Notes under the pieces: generated by a model
Seen by the model: only the letters and a program-made list of their open reading frames with translations
Databases searched by the model: none
What the model was told of the DNA's origin: nothing
Translations under genes and position numbers: made by a program
Shown here: positions 11,277 through 61,502 of the stretch, piece by piece
How positions within the stretch are numbered: position 1 is the first letter of the stretch
Layout: each line of letters begins with the position of its first letter
Source: Pseudomonas sp. 21
GTDB taxonomy: Bacteria; Pseudomonadota; Gammaproteobacteria; Pseudomonadales; Pseudomonadaceae
Length of the DNA: 64,000 nucleotides
Direction of reading: 5' to 3'
NCBI RefSeq assembly: GCF_000955805.1
Contig: NZ_JYOA01000005.1
Coordinates: 322,635-386,634, forward strand

Positions 11277-12215
11277 CTACAGGCGCTTGGCGGCGCCGCT
11301 GGCGATCAGTTCGGCCAGGGCCGAGACGTCGAGCAGCGCGCACATCTGGTCGATCACCGTGCCGGCCAGCCACGGGCGTTGCTGGCGCTGGCTGCGCCAC
11401 TTCACCTCGGACGGGTCCAGGCGCACGGAGCGGCTGACCTGATGCACGGCCAGCCCCCACTCGTAGCCCTGCACGGAAATCACGTACTGCAGCCCCTCGC
11501 GGTAGTCGTCGCGGTAACGCTCGGGCATCACCCAGCGCGCGGTATCGAGCACCTTCAGGTTGCCGTTCTGGCCCGGCAGGATGCCGAGGAACCAGTCGGG
11601 CTGGCCGAACAGCGGGGTCAGGTCGTGCCCCGCCAGTGGATAAATGGAGCCCAGGCAGACCAGCGGCACTGCCAGGGTCAGCCCGGCGACGTCGAACAGC
11701 AGGCACTCGAAGGGCTCGGCGGCCCACACCGGGCGGCCGTCGTCGAGCAGCTTCAGCGGCGCGGCGGGCATCTCGGCGCTGCCGGGCTGGTGCAGGTCGA
11801 TGACCTGGCCCAGTTGTGCCGACGGTTCGTCGGCAACAGGCGCTTCAATGACCGGGACCACTGTCTCGGGCACGCGCAGTTCTGCCACCGGAGTCTGGGC
11901 AACCGGCACGCGGGCGGTGACGTTCAGGCGCGCATCACGGACCTGCTCTTCGAGCACGGCCGCTTCGAATTCGTCGAGGCTGACGCTGGCTTCCGGCGCC
12001 TGTACGACGGCAGCCTGAGGCTCGGCGACCAAGGGCGCGACCGGCTCGCTGACCACCAGCGCCACCGGGGCGACCGGAGCAGGAGCAACAGCAGGAGCAA
12101 CAGGCTGCGCCACCGGTTCCGGGGCGAAGTCTTCGAAAGTGGCCTCCTGCAGCAGCGCGTCCAGGTAGGACTGCAGCGCAAGCTGGGGGCGAGTGGCGGT
12201 AGCGGAACGACTCAT
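11277..12215 (-). CDS. parP: CheW-domain array-integrity protein ParP
   Basis: The 312-residue protein has an N-terminal region (1-170) rich in Ala/Pro/Val, probably disordered. A C-terminal CheW-like domain follows (residues ~175-312, CLLFDVAGLTLAVPLVCLGSIYP, YEWGLAVHQVSRSVRL, WLAGTVIDQMCALLDVSALAELI). This architecture and its place next to a ParA-like ATPase and cheW match ParP. In Vibrio, ParP ties CheA and receptors to ParC so that arrays stay at the cell pole. The ParP assignment is by architecture and synteny, not direct sequence proof. Confidence 0.8.
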   Translation of the reverse strand: MSRSATATRPQLALQSYLDALLQEATFEDFAPEPVAQPVAPAVAPAPVAPVALVVSEPVAPLVAEPQAAVVQAPEASVSLDEFEAAVLEEQVRDARLNVTARVPVAQTPVAELRVPETVVPVIEAPVADEPSAQLGQVIDLHQPGSAEMPAAPLKLLDDGRPVWAAEPFECLLFDVAGLTLAVPLVCLGSIYPLAGHDLTPLFGQPDWFLGILPGQNGNLKVLDTARWVMPERYRDDYREGLQYVISVQGYEWGLAVHQVSRSVRLDPSEVKWRSQRQQRPWLAGTVIDQMCALLDVSALAELIASGAAKRL

Positions 12216-12327
12216 GATGGATAACCGCGCAAGGTGACTTTCCAGACTATCGGCAGCGGGCGCGCCGCTCTTGAGCGCATCCGTCGGATTCTTTTGTTCG
12301 GGCCCGCCGGCCTCGGCAACGACATGT

Positions 12328-13116
12328 TCAGGCTACCTGGCTCGCCGGCACGTGGGCCAGCAGATGCTTGAGCAACGCGCGGTAGGCGATCACGCCACGG
12401 CTGTTGCCGTCATTGCGCGAGGGCACCGTACCCAGGCGGCTGGCGTCGCGCAGCTTGGTGTCTACCGGGATGAACGCCTGCCAGAGAGTCTCCGGGTAGG
12501 TATCGCGCAGCACCCGCAGGGTGCCCAGGGATGCCTGGGTACGGCGATCGAACAGGGTCGGCACGATGGTGAACGGCAGCGCCTGCTTGCGCGAGCGGTT
12601 GACCATCTTCAGCGTGTTGACCATGCGCTCCAGGCCCTTGAGGGCGAGGAACTCGGTCTGCACCGGGATCACCAGGTGCTGGCTGGCCGCCATCGCATTG
12701 ACCATCAGCACACCCAGCAGCGGCGGGCTATCGATGATCGCGTAGTCGAATTCGTTCCACAGCTGCGCCAGGCTCTTGGCGATCACCAGGCCCAGGCCGT
12801 TCTGCCCGGGCGACTGGCGCTCCAGGGTGGCCAGCGCAGTGCTCGACGGCAGCAGGCGGATGTTCTCGTGGCTGGTGGGCAGCAACAGCGACTCCGGCAA
12901 CCCCTCGGGCACGTTGCCCTGGTGCAGGAACAGGTCGAACACGCTGTGTTCCAGGGTGTCCGGGTCGTGGCCGAAATAGCTGGTCATCGAGCCATGGGGG
13001 TCCAGGTCGACGATCAGCACGCGCTTGCCGGCATCCGCCAGCAGGCCCGCCAAGGCGATGGAGGAAGTGGTCTTGCCGACGCCACCTTTCTGGTTGGCTA
13101 CCGCCCAGACTTTCAT
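12328..13116 (-). CDS. parC: ParA-family ATPase ParC (chemotaxis array positioning)
   Basis: This 262-residue ParA/MinD-type ATPase has a deviant Walker A KGGVGKTTSS (residues ~10-19), with switch I/II motifs DLDPHGSMTSYFG and IIDSPPLLGVLMVNAM. I chose the ATG at 13116 (MKVWAVANQKGG) because it places the P-loop at the usual distance. In Vibrio and Pseudomonas, ParA-like proteins encoded in the main che cluster set polar placement and segregation of chemoreceptor arrays. It lies between motD and parP. It is distinct from FleN at 20362-21189. Confidence 0.88.
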   Translation of the reverse strand: MKVWAVANQKGGVGKTTSSIALAGLLADAGKRVLIVDLDPHGSMTSYFGHDPDTLEHSVFDLFLHQGNVPEGLPESLLLPTSHENIRLLPSSTALATLERQSPGQNGLGLVIAKSLAQLWNEFDYAIIDSPPLLGVLMVNAMAASQHLVIPVQTEFLALKGLERMVNTLKMVNRSRKQALPFTIVPTLFDRRTQASLGTLRVLRDTYPETLWQAFIPVDTKLRDASRLGTVPSRNDGNSRGVIAYRALLKHLLAHVPASQVA

Positions 13117-54910: not shown

Positions 54911-56068
54911 TTACTGGAGCAGCTTCAGGACAGCGGAAGGCAGCTGGTTGGCCTGGGCCAGTACCGCGGTGGCGGCCTGTTGCAGGGTCTGCTGCTTGGT
55001 CATCTCCGCGGTTTCTGCGGCGAAGTCCACGTCCTGGATGGTGCTGCGTGCAGCGGTGGCGTTCTCGGACACGTTCTGCAGGTTCGAGATGGTGCTGTCC
55101 AGACGGTTCTGGATGGCACCCAGCGCGGAACGCTGAGTATCGATCTGCTTCAGGGCGGCGTCGATCACCTGGGTAGCCGATTGAGCGCCCTTGGCAGTGG
55201 TGATGTCCAGTTGCTGCACGGTGAAGGCGGAGCTGGTGGCGGTGGCAGGGGAGCCTGCACCTGCGCTGACCAGACCGGCACTGGCAACCACACCGGCGTT
55301 GAAGTCGGAGCTGGAGGTCAGGGTGATGACCGGGGCAGCACCTGCGCTGGCTGCGCTGTTGACTGCAGCGACACCGCTGACGTTGGTGTTGATCGCGCCA
55401 ACGATGTCGTTGACGGTGGCGCCCTTCTCGTAGGACACAGCAGTGCCGTTGATGGCAATGGTGCCGGCGGTGGAAGCCAGGCCGGCGCTGTCGAAGGTGA
55501 TACCGCTCAGGTTGGCCGAGGCCAGCTGCGAGGAGCCTTTCAGCGCGGTGGCGCTCATGTCGCTCAGGGTGAAGCTGACGGTTTCGTTGGCGTTGGCGCC
55601 GACCTGGAAGGTCAGGGTGCCGTTGGTGCCGGCAGTGCCGTCGAGCAGCTTGATGCCGGAGGTGCCGCCACCGAAGGTGGTGGTCTTGGAGATACGGGTC
55701 AGTTCAGCGGTCAGCGACTTGAACTCCTGGTTCAGGGAAGTCTGGTCTTCGCTGCTGTTGGAACCGTTGGCGGACTGCAGGGACAGTTCGCGCATACGCT
55801 GCAGGATGTTGGTGGACTCTTGCAGAGCACCTTCAGCGGCCTGGGCGATGGAGTTGGCGTCCTGGGCGTTCTTCACGGCTACGTTCAGGCCGTTGACCTG
55901 GCTGGTCAGACGGTTGGAGATCTGCGAGCCGGCGGCGTCGTCCTTGGCGCTGTTGATACGCAGGCCGGTGGACAGACGGGTCATGGAAGTGTTCAGGTTG
56001 TTGGCGGCCTTGGTCAGGTTCTTTTGAACCGACAGCGAGGCGATGTTGGTGTTGACGGTAAGAGCCAT
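54911..56068 (-). CDS. fliC: Flagellin FliC
   Basis: FliC is the filament subunit. The 385-residue protein has conserved N-terminal ([50 protein letters not shown]) and C-terminal ([40 protein letters not shown] in pieces) D0/D1 domains. A short Ala/Gly/Thr/Ser-rich variable centre spans residues ~170-290. It is closer in size to a-type than to b-type (PAO1) flagellins. It is driven by a sigma-28 promoter. The divergent genes that follow may glycosylate its Ser/Thr-rich centre. Confidence 0.97.
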
Positions 56069-57933: not shown

Positions 57934-59247
57934 ATGAAGTGTTGTGTGATCATCCCCGTAGGCCCCGGCCATCAGGACATCGTCAGCCGCGCGAAGGACT
58001 CGGTGGCCCGAGCGGTCGCGCATGGCCAGGGACTCTTCGACGAAATCCAGGTACTGGAGATGGATGACAGCCAAGGGCTCCTCGGCCGTTCCCACGTCCG
58101 CAATCTGGCAGTCAAGGAAGCCGGAAATCGTGGTATCGACTGGCTGTTCTTCCTCGACGCCGACGATGTGATGTGCCCCAGCGCCTTTGTTGACGTCGCT
58201 AGTCTGCTGCCGACCCATGACGCCATTTGGGGAGCCATTTTCGTCGCCGATCTGAAGGCGGGCCAGGTATCACGGCGCGAGAACCAGATCAGTCCGATCG
58301 ATAGCCTGGAACAGGTACTGTTGAACGACCCCTACCTGACCCTGCAGATGGGCCACTTCGTTCGCCAGGGCGTGGCAGAGGCGAATGCCTTCGATACCGA
58401 ACTCGATACCGGCGAAGACTTCGACTACTACCTGCGCCTCTGGAAGGACCAGCGCTGCATCAAGATCGACACCCCGTTGTTCCTGAACATCCGCGGGCAG
58501 CACTCGACCGGCCCACGTGCAGCCAGTGGCAACGACTGGCGCAAGGCGATCAACCAGGTGTTCGCCGCCTTCTGCCGCAACAACGATGTGGTGGCGTCGA
58601 TCCCGCTCAGGGAAGGCAGCCTCTCCCTGCGCCTGAGCAATACCCTCGACCCGATCCAGGCTTTGCTTGCCCAGGAGCGCCTGCATGACGGTGAAGAGTT
58701 GATTGAAGTGCTGCGTCGGCTTCCCCAGGACGCACGGCTGATCGACGTGGGCGCCCACCTGGGCAGCCACTCGCTGTTCCTGGTGCTCGCCGCCCACGCG
58801 GCTTCCCTGGACAGCTACGAAGTGGACCCGGAACTGGCCGAGTACCTGGAGTACAACCTGCGCCTGAACGACCTGGACCCGGAACGCTATCGGGCTCACC
58901 AGGCCATTGTCGGTGCGGGCCCGAACAACCCGGACAAGGCAGAAAGCCTGTTTGGCCGCATGGACCTGAAGGACTACAGCCAGCCGCTCGGCCATGCACT
59001 GGACGCCCTGCACCCCGATGCTGGCTGCCACCTGCTGCGGATTGATCGACCCGGCCTGGAGAGCGGCATTCTTCGCGGTGCCGCCCGACTGATCGAGAAG
59101 AACCGTCCGCTGATCCTGGCGCGCGCGATGAATGACAACAAGGGCAGGCTCATCGCCTGGAGCGAAGACAACGGCTACCAGGTAGCGCGGGTGTTCGAAT
59201 ACTCGCTCAGCAGCAATTACCTGCTGGTGCCGAACGAAGGGGCCTGA
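57934..59247 (+). CDS. GT2 glycosyltransferase fused to FkbM-type methyltransferase
   Basis: This is a 437-residue two-domain protein. Residues ~1-215 are a GT-A (GT2-like) glycosyltransferase (KCCVIIPVGPGHQDIVSRAKDSVARAV; metal/nucleotide-sugar acidic motif WLFFLDADDVM; TGEDFDYYLRLW). Residues ~235-437 are a SAM-dependent FkbM-family methyltransferase (RLIDVGAHLGSHSLFLVLAAHAA, DSYEVDPELAEYLEYNLRLND, CHLLRIDRPGLESGILRGA). It starts 20 bases after the TPR glycosyltransferase, with AGGA eight bases before the ATG. It probably adds and O-methylates a sugar on flagellin; this is inferred. Confidence 0.85.
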   Translation: MKCCVIIPVGPGHQDIVSRAKDSVARAVAHGQGLFDEIQVLEMDDSQGLLGRSHVRNLAVKEAGNRGIDWLFFLDADDVMCPSAFVDVASLLPTHDAIWGAIFVADLKAGQVSRRENQISPIDSLEQVLLNDPYLTLQMGHFVRQGVAEANAFDTELDTGEDFDYYLRLWKDQRCIKIDTPLFLNIRGQHSTGPRAASGNDWRKAINQVFAAFCRNNDVVASIPLREGSLSLRLSNTLDPIQALLAQERLHDGEELIEVLRRLPQDARLIDVGAHLGSHSLFLVLAAHAASLDSYEVDPELAEYLEYNLRLNDLDPERYRAHQAIVGAGPNNPDKAESLFGRMDLKDYSQPLGHALDALHPDAGCHLLRIDRPGLESGILRGAARLIEKNRPLILARAMNDNKGRLIAWSEDNGYQVARVFEYSLSSNYLLVPNEGA

Positions 59248-59255
59248 TCCCGATC

Positions 59256-59288
59256 GCCGGGGAGGCCCCCCTGGGGGTCACGCCCGGC
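59256..59288. terminator. Possible bidirectional terminator between convergent genes
   Basis: GCCGGG (59256-59261) pairs with CCCGGC (59283-59288), and an inner GC-rich segment GGCCCCCC/GGGGG can extend the structure. It spans the 30-base gap between the GT2-FkbM gene and the convergent methyltransferase. No T run is seen. Confidence 0.35.
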
Positions 59289-59883
59289 GGCGGTAGACGT
59301 GCACGGTCAGGCGCACATCGCGCCCGACATTGAAAGCCGGCGTGTCATAGCGGGCATACACGGCCTTGCCATATCTTTCCAGCTCGAAGCCCTGACGCAA
59401 CATGGCGCCTACGTAGGCCTCCGGATCGCGGTTGAAGATCGGCGGATTACCGTCGCGGCGCCAGCGCTCATCCATCACCTCCCCTATCACCACACGGTCC
59501 ACGGCCGCACAGATCGGCGCCAGGAATCGCCCCAGCTCCTCGTCCGGAATGTGGCAGGCAACGGTGTAGATCAGGGCGGTTCCCGACTTCGGCAGTTCGG
59601 CTCCCGGCTCGATGCATTCGAAGCGATAGCCCGGATGGTTTTCCCGCGCCGTGCTGACCGCCGAAACGTTGACGTCCACGCCCAGGTAGCGGTCGCTGGG
59701 GAAAGCCTTGCACAGGCGCCCGTAACCGCAGCCGACTTCGAGCACACCATCGCTGGCATCGATGACTTGGCTGAGCATCAACCGAACGTCGAAGCCCTCG
59801 GGAAATTCGCCACCCACATCAGGGATGACGTGCCTCAGGCCTTCGGCATTCCAGAACGCCGCCAGGTCTTCAAGGGTTGCCAT
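59278..59883 (-). CDS. Class I SAM-dependent methyltransferase
   Basis: The 201-residue protein has the class I methyltransferase core: motif I GVLEVGCGYGRLCKAF, motif II YLGVDVNVSAVSTAREN, and the motif IV region GTALIYTVACHIPDEELGRFL. It follows flgL by 23 bases on the same strand and is convergent with the GT2-FkbM gene. It may therefore be expressed with flgK-flgL while acting with the modification genes. Target unknown; a modified sugar or flagellin is a plausible guess. Confidence 0.85.
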   Translation of the reverse strand: MATLEDLAAFWNAEGLRHVIPDVGGEFPEGFDVRLMLSQVIDASDGVLEVGCGYGRLCKAFPSDRYLGVDVNVSAVSTARENHPGYRFECIEPGAELPKSGTALIYTVACHIPDEELGRFLAPICAAVDRVVIGEVMDERWRRDGNPPIFNRDPEAYVGAMLRQGFELERYGKAVYARYDTPAFNVGRDVRLTVHVYRRRA

Positions 59884-59906: not shown

Positions 59907-61502
59907 TCAGAGTTTGTTGAACAGACTGAGCTGGCTGATCCGCGCGAACGCCGCCTGGGCGGCTTCGAGCATGGTCTGCTGCAGCACCAGCTGCGAGGTC
60001 GCCGCGGCCATGTCGGTATCACGGATCGACGACTGCGTAGTGGTGTTGGTCAGCGCCAGGCTCTGGTTCTCCTGGTTCAGCACATCGATGGTGTTGAGCC
60101 GCGCGCCAATGGACGACTGGGTCGCCAGCACCTGGTCGCTGGCCTTGTCGAGGTTGGTGAGCGCAGTCGCGACCATGTTGCGGATATTCAGCTGCGCCTG
60201 CGGATCCCCACTGGTAGAGGTATCCAGCGCGGTCCGCAGATCGCCGATGGTATTGAGGATGTTCTGCCGCTCCGGCGAGTTGGCGGTGACGCTGAACTGG
60301 TCGCCGGCAGCCGGCGCTGCGCTGATGCTCATGTCGACGCCGGCCACGGTGACGGTCTGCGGGAAGGTCGCGCCGAGGGTTCCGGTGGACAGCGGCGAAG
60401 CGCCCTGGCTGGTGGGCAGGGCATAGACCTCGTAGGCGGTGGCACTGGTGAACTTGAGCTGCACGCCGCTGCTGGGGAACTGCGTGGTATAGGCCGTGTT
60501 GTTGCTCACCGAGGCCGAGGTGATCTGTGCCATCGAGGTGTTGGTCGCGCTGCGCTTGATCGACAGGCTCTCCGGCGCCGCGCCGAAGCTGAAGCTGTAG
60601 CCGCCCACCAGGCTGTCCATGGTGCTGGCGTCATCGGTCTTCTGCAGCGAGACGTCGAGCTGGAACTGCGCACCGCGGAAGTTGATGGCGTTGCTGTCGG
60701 TGGAAGTCGCGTCATACACGCCGTTGGTGGTGGCTTCGCTGGTGACGTCGTTGCCGTTCTTGTCGAGGATCTGGTACTGCGTTCCACTGAGCACGTTCAG
60801 CGTGTAGGGCGCACCGTTGCGGAAACTGGCGTTGTAGCTGCTGTCGCTGGTCACGTTGCCCTGGGACAGGAATGCGCGCTGCACACCATCGGCATTGGGG
60901 TTGCTGGCCAGCGAGCTGGTGGTGCGGCTGGCGTTGGCCGCCATCTCGAAGATGCTCCAGCCGTTGTCGTTGGTCGACAGCGTCAGGTTGTCGGAGATCT
61001 GCAGCTTGAGGGAGCTCTGGTCGCCCTGGTAGCTGAAGCTGCCGTCGGCGTTCTGCACGAAGGGCTGCACGGTGCTCTTGCTGCCGGAGAACAGGTAGTT
61101 GCCACTGGCGTCCTTGCTGTTCATGAGGGTCAGCAGCTGGTTCTGGATCTCGCCCAGTTCATCGCTGATGGCGCCGCGGTCCTCGTCGGTCATCGAGCCG
61201 TCGCCGGCGCGCAGCGTCAGTTCGCGGGCGCGCTGCAGGGCGGTGGTGATGGAGTCGAGAACGCTCTGCTCCTGGTTCAGGCTGTTGGTCGCGGAGGTCA
61301 TGTTGCCGCTGTACTGGGTCAGCAGCGCCTGCTGCTGTTCCAGCTGCAGCAGACGCGCGGCGCCGACGGGGTCGTCCGCCGGGGTCTGGATGCGCGTGCC
61401 GCTGGAGATCTGCTCCTGCAGTTTGGCCAGGCTGGCATAGCCGCGGTTGTAGTTGTCGATGTTCGAATTGAAGATCTGCGGGGTGGAAATTCGCACAACC
61501 AT
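59907..61502 (-). CDS. flgL: Hook-filament junction protein FlgL
   Basis: FlgL joins hook to filament with FlgK. The 531-residue protein has flagellin-like termini (MVVRISTPQIFNSNIDNYNRGYASL, SSGTRIQTPADDPVGAARLLQLEQQ; C-terminal SQLVLQQTMLEAAQAAFARISQLSLFNKL in pieces). It is longer than the ~440 residues of P. aeruginosa FlgL, because of an expanded central domain. It follows flgK by ten bases. Confidence 0.95.
   Translation of the reverse strand: MVVRISTPQIFNSNIDNYNRGYASLAKLQEQISSGTRIQTPADDPVGAARLLQLEQQQALLTQYSGNMTSATNSLNQEQSVLDSITTALQRARELTLRAGDGSMTDEDRGAISDELGEIQNQLLTLMNSKDASGNYLFSGSKSTVQPFVQNADGSFSYQGDQSSLKLQISDNLTLSTNDNGWSIFEMAANASRTTSSLASNPNADGVQRAFLSQGNVTSDSSYNASFRNGAPYTLNVLSGTQYQILDKNGNDVTSEATTNGVYDATSTDSNAINFRGAQFQLDVSLQKTDDASTMDSLVGGYSFSFGAAPESLSIKRSATNTSMAQITSASVSNNTAYTTQFPSSGVQLKFTSATAYEVYALPTSQGASPLSTGTLGATFPQTVTVAGVDMSISAAPAAGDQFSVTANSPERQNILNTIGDLRTALDTSTSGDPQAQLNIRNMVATALTNLDKASDQVLATQSSIGARLNTIDVLNQENQSLALTNTTTQSSIRDTDMAAATSQLVLQQTMLEAAQAAFARISQLSLFNKL

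Follow-up and report, generated by a model that had tools for sequence, protein, structure and literature searches.

A GT2–FkbM fusion protein with an apparently eroded methyltransferase half in the fliC–flgL island of a Pseudomonas

The 64,000 bp stretch of Pseudomonas sp. 21 DNA analyzed here (the window) carries, between fliC and flgL, a gene that fuses a GT2-type glycosyltransferase to an FkbM-type methyltransferase, and both this fusion and the three-gene island that contains it are real. A preliminary description of the locus proposed that the fused protein adds a sugar and methyl-caps it in one step; that claim is weakened by the sequence comparisons below and we consider it doubtful, in that the FkbM half has lost residues that control domains keep, evolves faster than the transferase half and is accompanied by a separate, conserved methyltransferase (MT3). 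The main point of interest is an apparent reciprocal decay of the FkbM-type and MT3-type modules: two arrangements were found (in five plus two genomes), and by their sequence motifs each combines one canonical with one degenerate methyltransferase module.

The layout of the window locus is given in Table 1. The fusion frame on the + strand begins with ATG, ends in a stop codon and encodes 437 aa, and the two motifs that the preliminary description placed in one polypeptide, DADD and VGAHLGS (residues 272–278), are both in it. The description of a compact three-gene island also held, since the TPR glycosyltransferase (TPR-GT), the fusion and MT3 lie side by side between fliC and flgL. The TPR-GT matches TPR families in its N-terminal part (best E 2.6e-14) and a heptosyltransferase profile weakly in its C-terminal part (E 0.006), and it is a candidate for the first (protein O-) transferase. 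The island is without any sugar-synthesis gene; at other places in the genome there are two copies of rmlA and one of rmlD that score over cut-off. A promoter pattern scan gave nothing usable: no FliA site matched, and the stricter sigma-54 pattern matched once, within flgL at 59932. Outside the window, contig C40 of the same genome has a second flagellin (open frame of 319 aa) and a second FlgL-like gene (coordinates of this second set, 362813–363199 on the − strand and 380040–380441 on the + strand; L004, L001), which suggests that a second flagellar set is present; many other members of the genus show similar second flagellin/FlgL matches.

Table 1. Features of the fliC–flgL island and its borders (window coordinates)
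Feature	Position	Strand	Evidence
fliC, flagellin, 385 aa, presumed substrate	54911..56068	-	Pfam Flagellin_N E 1.1e-40, Flagellin_C E 1.5e-27
TPR glycosyltransferase (TPR-GT), 545 aa	56276..57913	+	TPR part at the N-terminus, likeness to glycosyltransferases in the C-terminal part
Fusion, GT2/GT-A half, residues 1-225, strongly conserved	57934..58608	+	GT-A fold, low dN/dS
DADD motif (DxD-type), residues 75-78	58156..58167	+	invariant in 7/7 aligned sequences, window included
Fusion, eroded FkbM-type methyltransferase half, residues 226-437	58609..59247	+	class I methyltransferase fold
SAM motif I, DVGAHLG, residues 271-277, largely kept	58744..58764	+	alignment
RIDRPG, residues 369-374; FkbM family has KxDx[E/Q/D]G here	59038..59055	+	alignment
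MT3, separate SAM methyltransferase, 201 aa, adjoins flgL	59278..59883	-	Methyltransf_25 E 5.6e-6
flgL, hook-filament junction protein, other slot border	59907..61502	-	Flagellin_N E 1.2e-23

The assignment of the two halves to GT2 and FkbM-type families, also made in the preliminary description, is borne out by two predicted folds and whole-length homologues in other genomes, and the profile matches are weak. The window fusion matches Glycos_transf_2 (PF00535) with E 0.0036 and 17.7 bits, under the cut-off of 23.3; among its relatives L031 (17.4) and L038 (22.6) are also under this value, and L036, L042, L039 and L030 are over it. For the second half the match to FkbM (PF05050) is barely over the cut-off (E 1e-4, 22.8 versus 22.7 bits) and that to TIGR01444 just under it (E 4e-9, 37.0 versus 37.7 bits), and several of the fusion orthologues outscore the window protein on the family profiles. 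In the predicted structure (the best of five models with pLDDT 77, the range over the five being 43–77, and with values under 50 at residues 188–200, 238–252, 275–277 and 333–351) residues 1 to ~220 adopt a GT-A fold like that of TarS, TarP, SpsA, RmlT and WrtF (Z 16–18), and residues ~220–436 the fold of a class I SAM methyltransferase (YhhF, Z 16.6; RsmD, 15.2; also HI0767 and Trm5, all within Z 15–16.6). A sequence search of solved structures with the window fusion gave no relative up to E 1, and the same search with its 620-aa relative L039 gave the FkbM structure 2py6 (E 0.008) and two tRNA methyltransferases (E 0.44).

The two-domain frame is present over its whole length in six other genomes at 47–92% identity, and thus it is neither a chance open reading frame nor a frameshift artefact. 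A scan of named genomes found it in Pseudomonas nicosulfuronedens LAM1902 (92%) and Pseudomonas sp. S31 (47%); LAM1902 (L029) and genome G007 (L031) give the same identities and were counted once. Whole-genome searches of 25 genomes of the genus located a whole-length fusion in six, the window's own included (57–100% identity), and among 398 genomes of the family, 20 have any match at E ≤ 0.001 and only the same six have a whole-length one. A phage origin of the fusion was considered and set aside, as none of 50,697 phage records was matched at 1e-5 in a tblastn search.

The FkbM halves of these proteins differ greatly in how well they fit the family. Their TIGR01444 scores are 90.7 (L039), 76.6 (L030), 50.0 (L038), 46.9 (L042), 46.4 (L031) and 40.7 bits (L036), the window protein having the lowest, and in the alignment L039 and L030 read LLKIDVEG and LLKVDAQG, respectively, where the other five fusions read LLRIDRPG, LLRVDRRG or LLRIDRRG. 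The family's KxDx[E/Q/D]G, which follows strand 4, is thus R[I/V]DR[P/R]G in all five members of what we call the window clade (the window protein and four relatives). In 55 control FkbM domains (29 of 46 non-window matches plus 26 of 39 matches from outside the family, those with a locus) the E/Q/D position is kept in all 53 that are readable (E in 42, Q in 8, D in 3) and is never P or R, a comparison that favours the canonical motif because the controls are best hits, retrieved by their similarity either to a canonical domain or to Pfam's profile. The two unreadable controls are L068 and L074; L067 has S in place of the K and L100 has E in place of the last G. At 25 conserved columns the window protein keeps 16, the clade 15–18, L039 and L030 22 each, and 37 controls 19–25; these 37 were chosen from the 55 with the filter KxDx[EQD][GE], and are thus uninformative on the KxDx[E/Q/D]G motif itself. 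K369, P297, E397 and the acidic or amide residue of that motif are lost in 5/5 clade members, and D371, E376, E296 and most of motif I are retained in the alignment. The four clade relatives are still over both FkbM cut-offs (PF05050 scores of 23.0–36.3, and TIGR01444 as well). A change of DVGAN to DVGAH was dropped as a sign of inactivity, since 5 of 26 other FkbM domains also read DVGAH. Because RIDRPG replaces KxDx[E/Q/D]G, we regard the second half of the window fusion, on alignment evidence, as FkbM-derived rather than as a functional FkbM enzyme; it has most likely lost its activity as a sugar methyltransferase and would now be a structural or docking module or have some other role.

Evolutionary rates, estimated by a simple pairwise method in which the pairs are not independent, also separate the two halves. 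Pairwise dN is larger for the methyltransferase (MT) half than for the transferase (GT) half in 20 of 21 fusion pairs, the exception being L039–L030, both of which are canonical, where the MT/GT ratio is 0.82 (0.58–1.12); in the six clade pairs that were bootstrapped (of ten) the ratio is 2.0–6.4 with intervals above 1. For MT3, dN is lower than for the MT half in six of these six pairs and lower than for the GT half in five. Within the clade (10 pairs) dN/dS is 0.13–0.47 for the MT half and 0.04–0.19 for the GT half, and between the clade and L039 it is 0.46–0.90 and 0.20–0.46, respectively. The MT half is thus still constrained, with most of its change lying between the canonical and eroded forms, and the values point to relaxed or changed constraint on a domain that keeps its predicted fold and most of its SAM motif. 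Exchange of the whole domain as the source of the MT-half divergence is disfavoured, since dS between L039 and the clade is similar in both halves (GT 0.46–1.14, MT 0.68–1.26, a rough clock in such G+C-rich genes).

Purifying selection on the MT half implies that it has some function, which might be to methylate through an altered acceptor site. The fusion would then be a working bifunctional enzyme whose GT2 half adds a sugar and whose FkbM half methylates it, with MT3 placing a second methyl group and the odd residues fitting a new acceptor. We consider this reading possible but on the unlikely side: the largely kept SAM motif I, E296, D371 and E376, the persisting selection, and the precedent of Clostridioides difficile GT2 (CDR20291_0242), a single fused protein proposed to add and methylate rhamnose (PMC5207246), speak for it, but the four losses shared by the whole clade, an FkbM score for the window protein that misses the NCBIfam cut-off and only just reaches that of Pfam, and the faster pace of the MT half argue against it.

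MT3 is a better candidate methyltransferase than the fused FkbM half. It is 86–96% identical in the four clade relatives, with its EVGCGYGRLC motif intact, and in searches of 298 genomes of the family strong matches (441–454 bits) occur in exactly the five genomes that have an eroded fusion; all other matches in this set are under 31 bits, and none is in G008, the genome of L039. L039 and L030 (from strain S31) are longer fusions (620 and 619 aa, respectively) that have the canonical FkbM domain and ~180 aa extra at the C-terminus, and no MT3 gene was found in the 21-kb L030 locus, which was the extent of the search in S31. By hhalign this extra domain is a homologue of MT3 (probability 91.8, E 7.5e-7, 26% identity, from shallow alignments with Neff of 1.1 and 1.5); it lacks MT3's glycine-rich SAM motif, and is predicted to have a methyltransferase fold (Z up to 10, from a weak model with pLDDT 66). 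The structural matches listed for it are proteins of the SAM-methyltransferase type, most of them by title.

This reciprocal pattern could mean that the two modules form an active–inactive pair in which one catalyzes and the other holds the substrate or partner, MT3 being active and the FkbM half a helper in the window lineage and the reverse being true in the 620-aa relatives. The canonical FkbM domains of L039 and L030, the MT3-homologous, methyltransferase-like domain without a SAM motif at their C-termini, and the lack of an MT3 gene in the whole G008 genome and in the L030 locus are consistent with such pairing. We nonetheless think it unlikely, as contact between the modules is unsupported, the canonical relatives are only two in number, and the alignments and the C-terminal model have the shallowness and weakness given above. 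That the FkbM-type and MT3-type modules are a fixed pair, exactly one of them catalytic in each lineage, with roles that have switched and a dead partner kept fused as a helper, so that the dead FkbM half links sugar transfer to MT3 by serving as a docking platform, is a proposal we would likewise back with little confidence.

What occupies the slot between fliC and flgL differs among the 25 genomes of the genus. The two genes were located in all 25, and the islands were typed from the fetched stretches between them. The TPR-GT, a 435–437-aa fusion and MT3 are present in five (G000, which is the window's genome, G007, G017, G002 and G023), and a TPR-GT with the 620-aa fusion in one (G008). Four (G018, G009, G024 and G005) have a TPR-GT, a TPR-methyltransferase and another small methyltransferase, the domains having been scanned in L032 and the same layout read from open reading frames in the other three; in these islands (L032–L035) the protein that combines TPR and class I methyltransferase domains is ~530–570 aa long, and the small methyltransferase, 216 aa, is a different one, which BLASTP matches to MT3 at E 0.006 only. 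Eight more (G019, G011, G012, G010, G013, G004, G015 and G022) have an island with one protein of 1171–1824 aa, which we label “FgtA-like” by size and place; glycosyltransferase families were found in all seven of the eight that were scanned, and no homologue of the TPR-GT, the fusion or MT3 was found in these eight islands at E ≤ 1e-4. Unlike these, the window slot has no glycosyltransferase of over 1000 aa. The preliminary description set the island apart from the a-type and b-type islands of P. aeruginosa; the sequence comparison bears out such a difference for the eight giant-protein islands of the genus. In six genomes less than 0.6 kb separates the fliC and flgL matches, and in G006 the two genes are on different contigs and the slot is untyped, a whole-genome search there finding neither the fusion nor the TPR-GT. 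The slot is thus hypervariable and houses three or more kinds of island. In S31, which is not among the genus set, the slot (L030) holds a TPR-GT, the 619-aa fusion and a further open reading frame, this last encoding 309 aa between the fusion and flgL (11956–12885, − strand) and, by its start, presumably resembling a 3-oxoacyl-ACP synthase III. The 1824-aa protein of the G015 slot (L047, 2142–7616, + strand) is another transferase–methyltransferase fusion of different build, with a methyltransferase at ~95–255, a WbsX-type domain at 572–912 and a GT2 domain at ~1209–1389. Stretches like the MT half of the fusion also occur in open frames of 1753–1890 aa in four other Pseudomonadaceae genomes (G016, G020, G183 and G368; L011, L012, L017 and L018). 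The G016 and G020 frames were set aside as island relatives, because they are far from fliC or on another contig and have the canonical FkbM motif (L057, L060).

Flagellin is taken as the substrate of the island from the position of the genes, which leaves room for the view that the island modifies something else, for example another surface glycan, and that its flagellar neighbours are there by chance. We judge this very improbable: among the 25 genus genomes all six whole-length fusions are between fliC and flgL, and so are all ten whole-length TPR-GT matches from the whole-genome search (the window's own included), the partial, weaker TPR-GT matches elsewhere being two (G007:C35 and G011:C20), and the same slot holds other glycosyltransferase islands in eight further genomes (domains checked in seven). 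The P. aeruginosa genes pa1088–pa1091 are, we assume, also located between flgL and fliC. In PAO1, mutants in these genes have altered flagellin glycans (PMC11833859).

The island genes do not appear to share one history. Compared with L038 (G002), the window shows 95% identity in FlgL, 86% in MT3, 80% and 61% in the GT and MT halves of the fusion, respectively, and 55% in the TPR-GT; the last is the most divergent island gene between the window and L038 or L042 (54–55%, with FlgL at 92–95%), which looks like a sign of gene-level replacement inside the island. The TPR-GT of L039 is 78–83% identical to those of L036, L038 and L042, which have the eroded fusion and MT3, and 55% identical to the window's, so that closely related TPR-GTs occur with both arrangements. 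The window's FlgL was compared with those of other genomes (ten proteins in all) and is most similar to the one from L032 (96%), and because L032 has the TPR-methyltransferase cassette this suggests cassette exchange between species.

Our preferred reading, to which we would give about an even chance, is that the TPR-GT initiates a glycan on flagellin, which is then lengthened by the GT2 half and methylated by MT3, and that the FkbM half has lost catalysis or taken on another task. The island would glycosylate flagellin in the cytoplasm, where the TPR-GT, by analogy with Caulobacter FlmG, would bind it through its TPR part and place the first sugar on Ser/Thr; the GT2 half would then attach a further sugar, using a nucleotide-sugar whose synthesis is encoded outside the island. 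A candidate donor is dTDP-L-rhamnose, which is likely available because rmlA and rmlD are present. MT3 would methylate the resulting glycan, and the FkbM half would serve as a structural or docking module or in a new role.

Fused transferase–methyltransferase genes in flagellin islands tend to be read from their domain names as one-step enzymes. The window case shows that a methyltransferase half can erode and yet still match FkbM profiles, and it turns attention to MT3. The window and 620-aa lineages amount to a natural experiment in which related TPR-GTs accompany opposite methyltransferase arrangements, and if the reciprocal pattern holds they offer a clear system for asking how methyltransferase domains persist, and what use is made of them, once they are inactive.

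Among the matches listed from a search of the open-licence literature, from which subscription papers are mostly absent, there was no description of this island and none of an eroded methyltransferase in a flagellin transferase. Transferase–methyltransferase fusions in flagellin islands are themselves already known, from C. difficile and the Enterobacteriaceae, and FkbM genes are reported in the flagellin islands of Geobacillus (PMC5109656) and Dickeya (PMC7575072). The window TPR-GT resembles, by description, Caulobacter FlmG, a modular flagellin O-glycosyltransferase of 596 aa whose N-terminal TPR part binds flagellin and whose C-terminal part is a glycosyltransferase (PMC7591256); like FlmG, the 545-aa window protein has its TPR first. 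Again by description, the PAO1 b-type island pa1088–pa1091 is like the window's in that Pseudomonas flagellin glycan genes include a methyltransferase (PA1088) and a fused transferase (PA1091), but PA1091 joins a GT2 glycosyltransferase to a phosphotransferase (PMC11833859), and the window island has no such giant. The flagellin islands of 194 Enterobacteriaceae strains are reported to contain GT41 (SPINDLY-type) glycosyltransferases fused to methyltransferase domains, plus one GT2 example (PMC4875605); these are likewise similar by description, but in the window the methyltransferase is joined to a GT2 domain and the TPR transferase is a separate protein. A further similar protein is C. difficile type B flagellin GT2, which has a glycosyltransferase (Pfam 00535) and a methyltransferase domain in one protein encoded near fliC, as the window fusion does, and for which the authors propose rhamnose addition and monomethylation (PMC5207246). 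Its methyltransferase domain is Pfam 08241 rather than FkbM, the other genes of its island differ from the window's, and the available part of that paper reports no eroded domain, whereas the window fusion has one.
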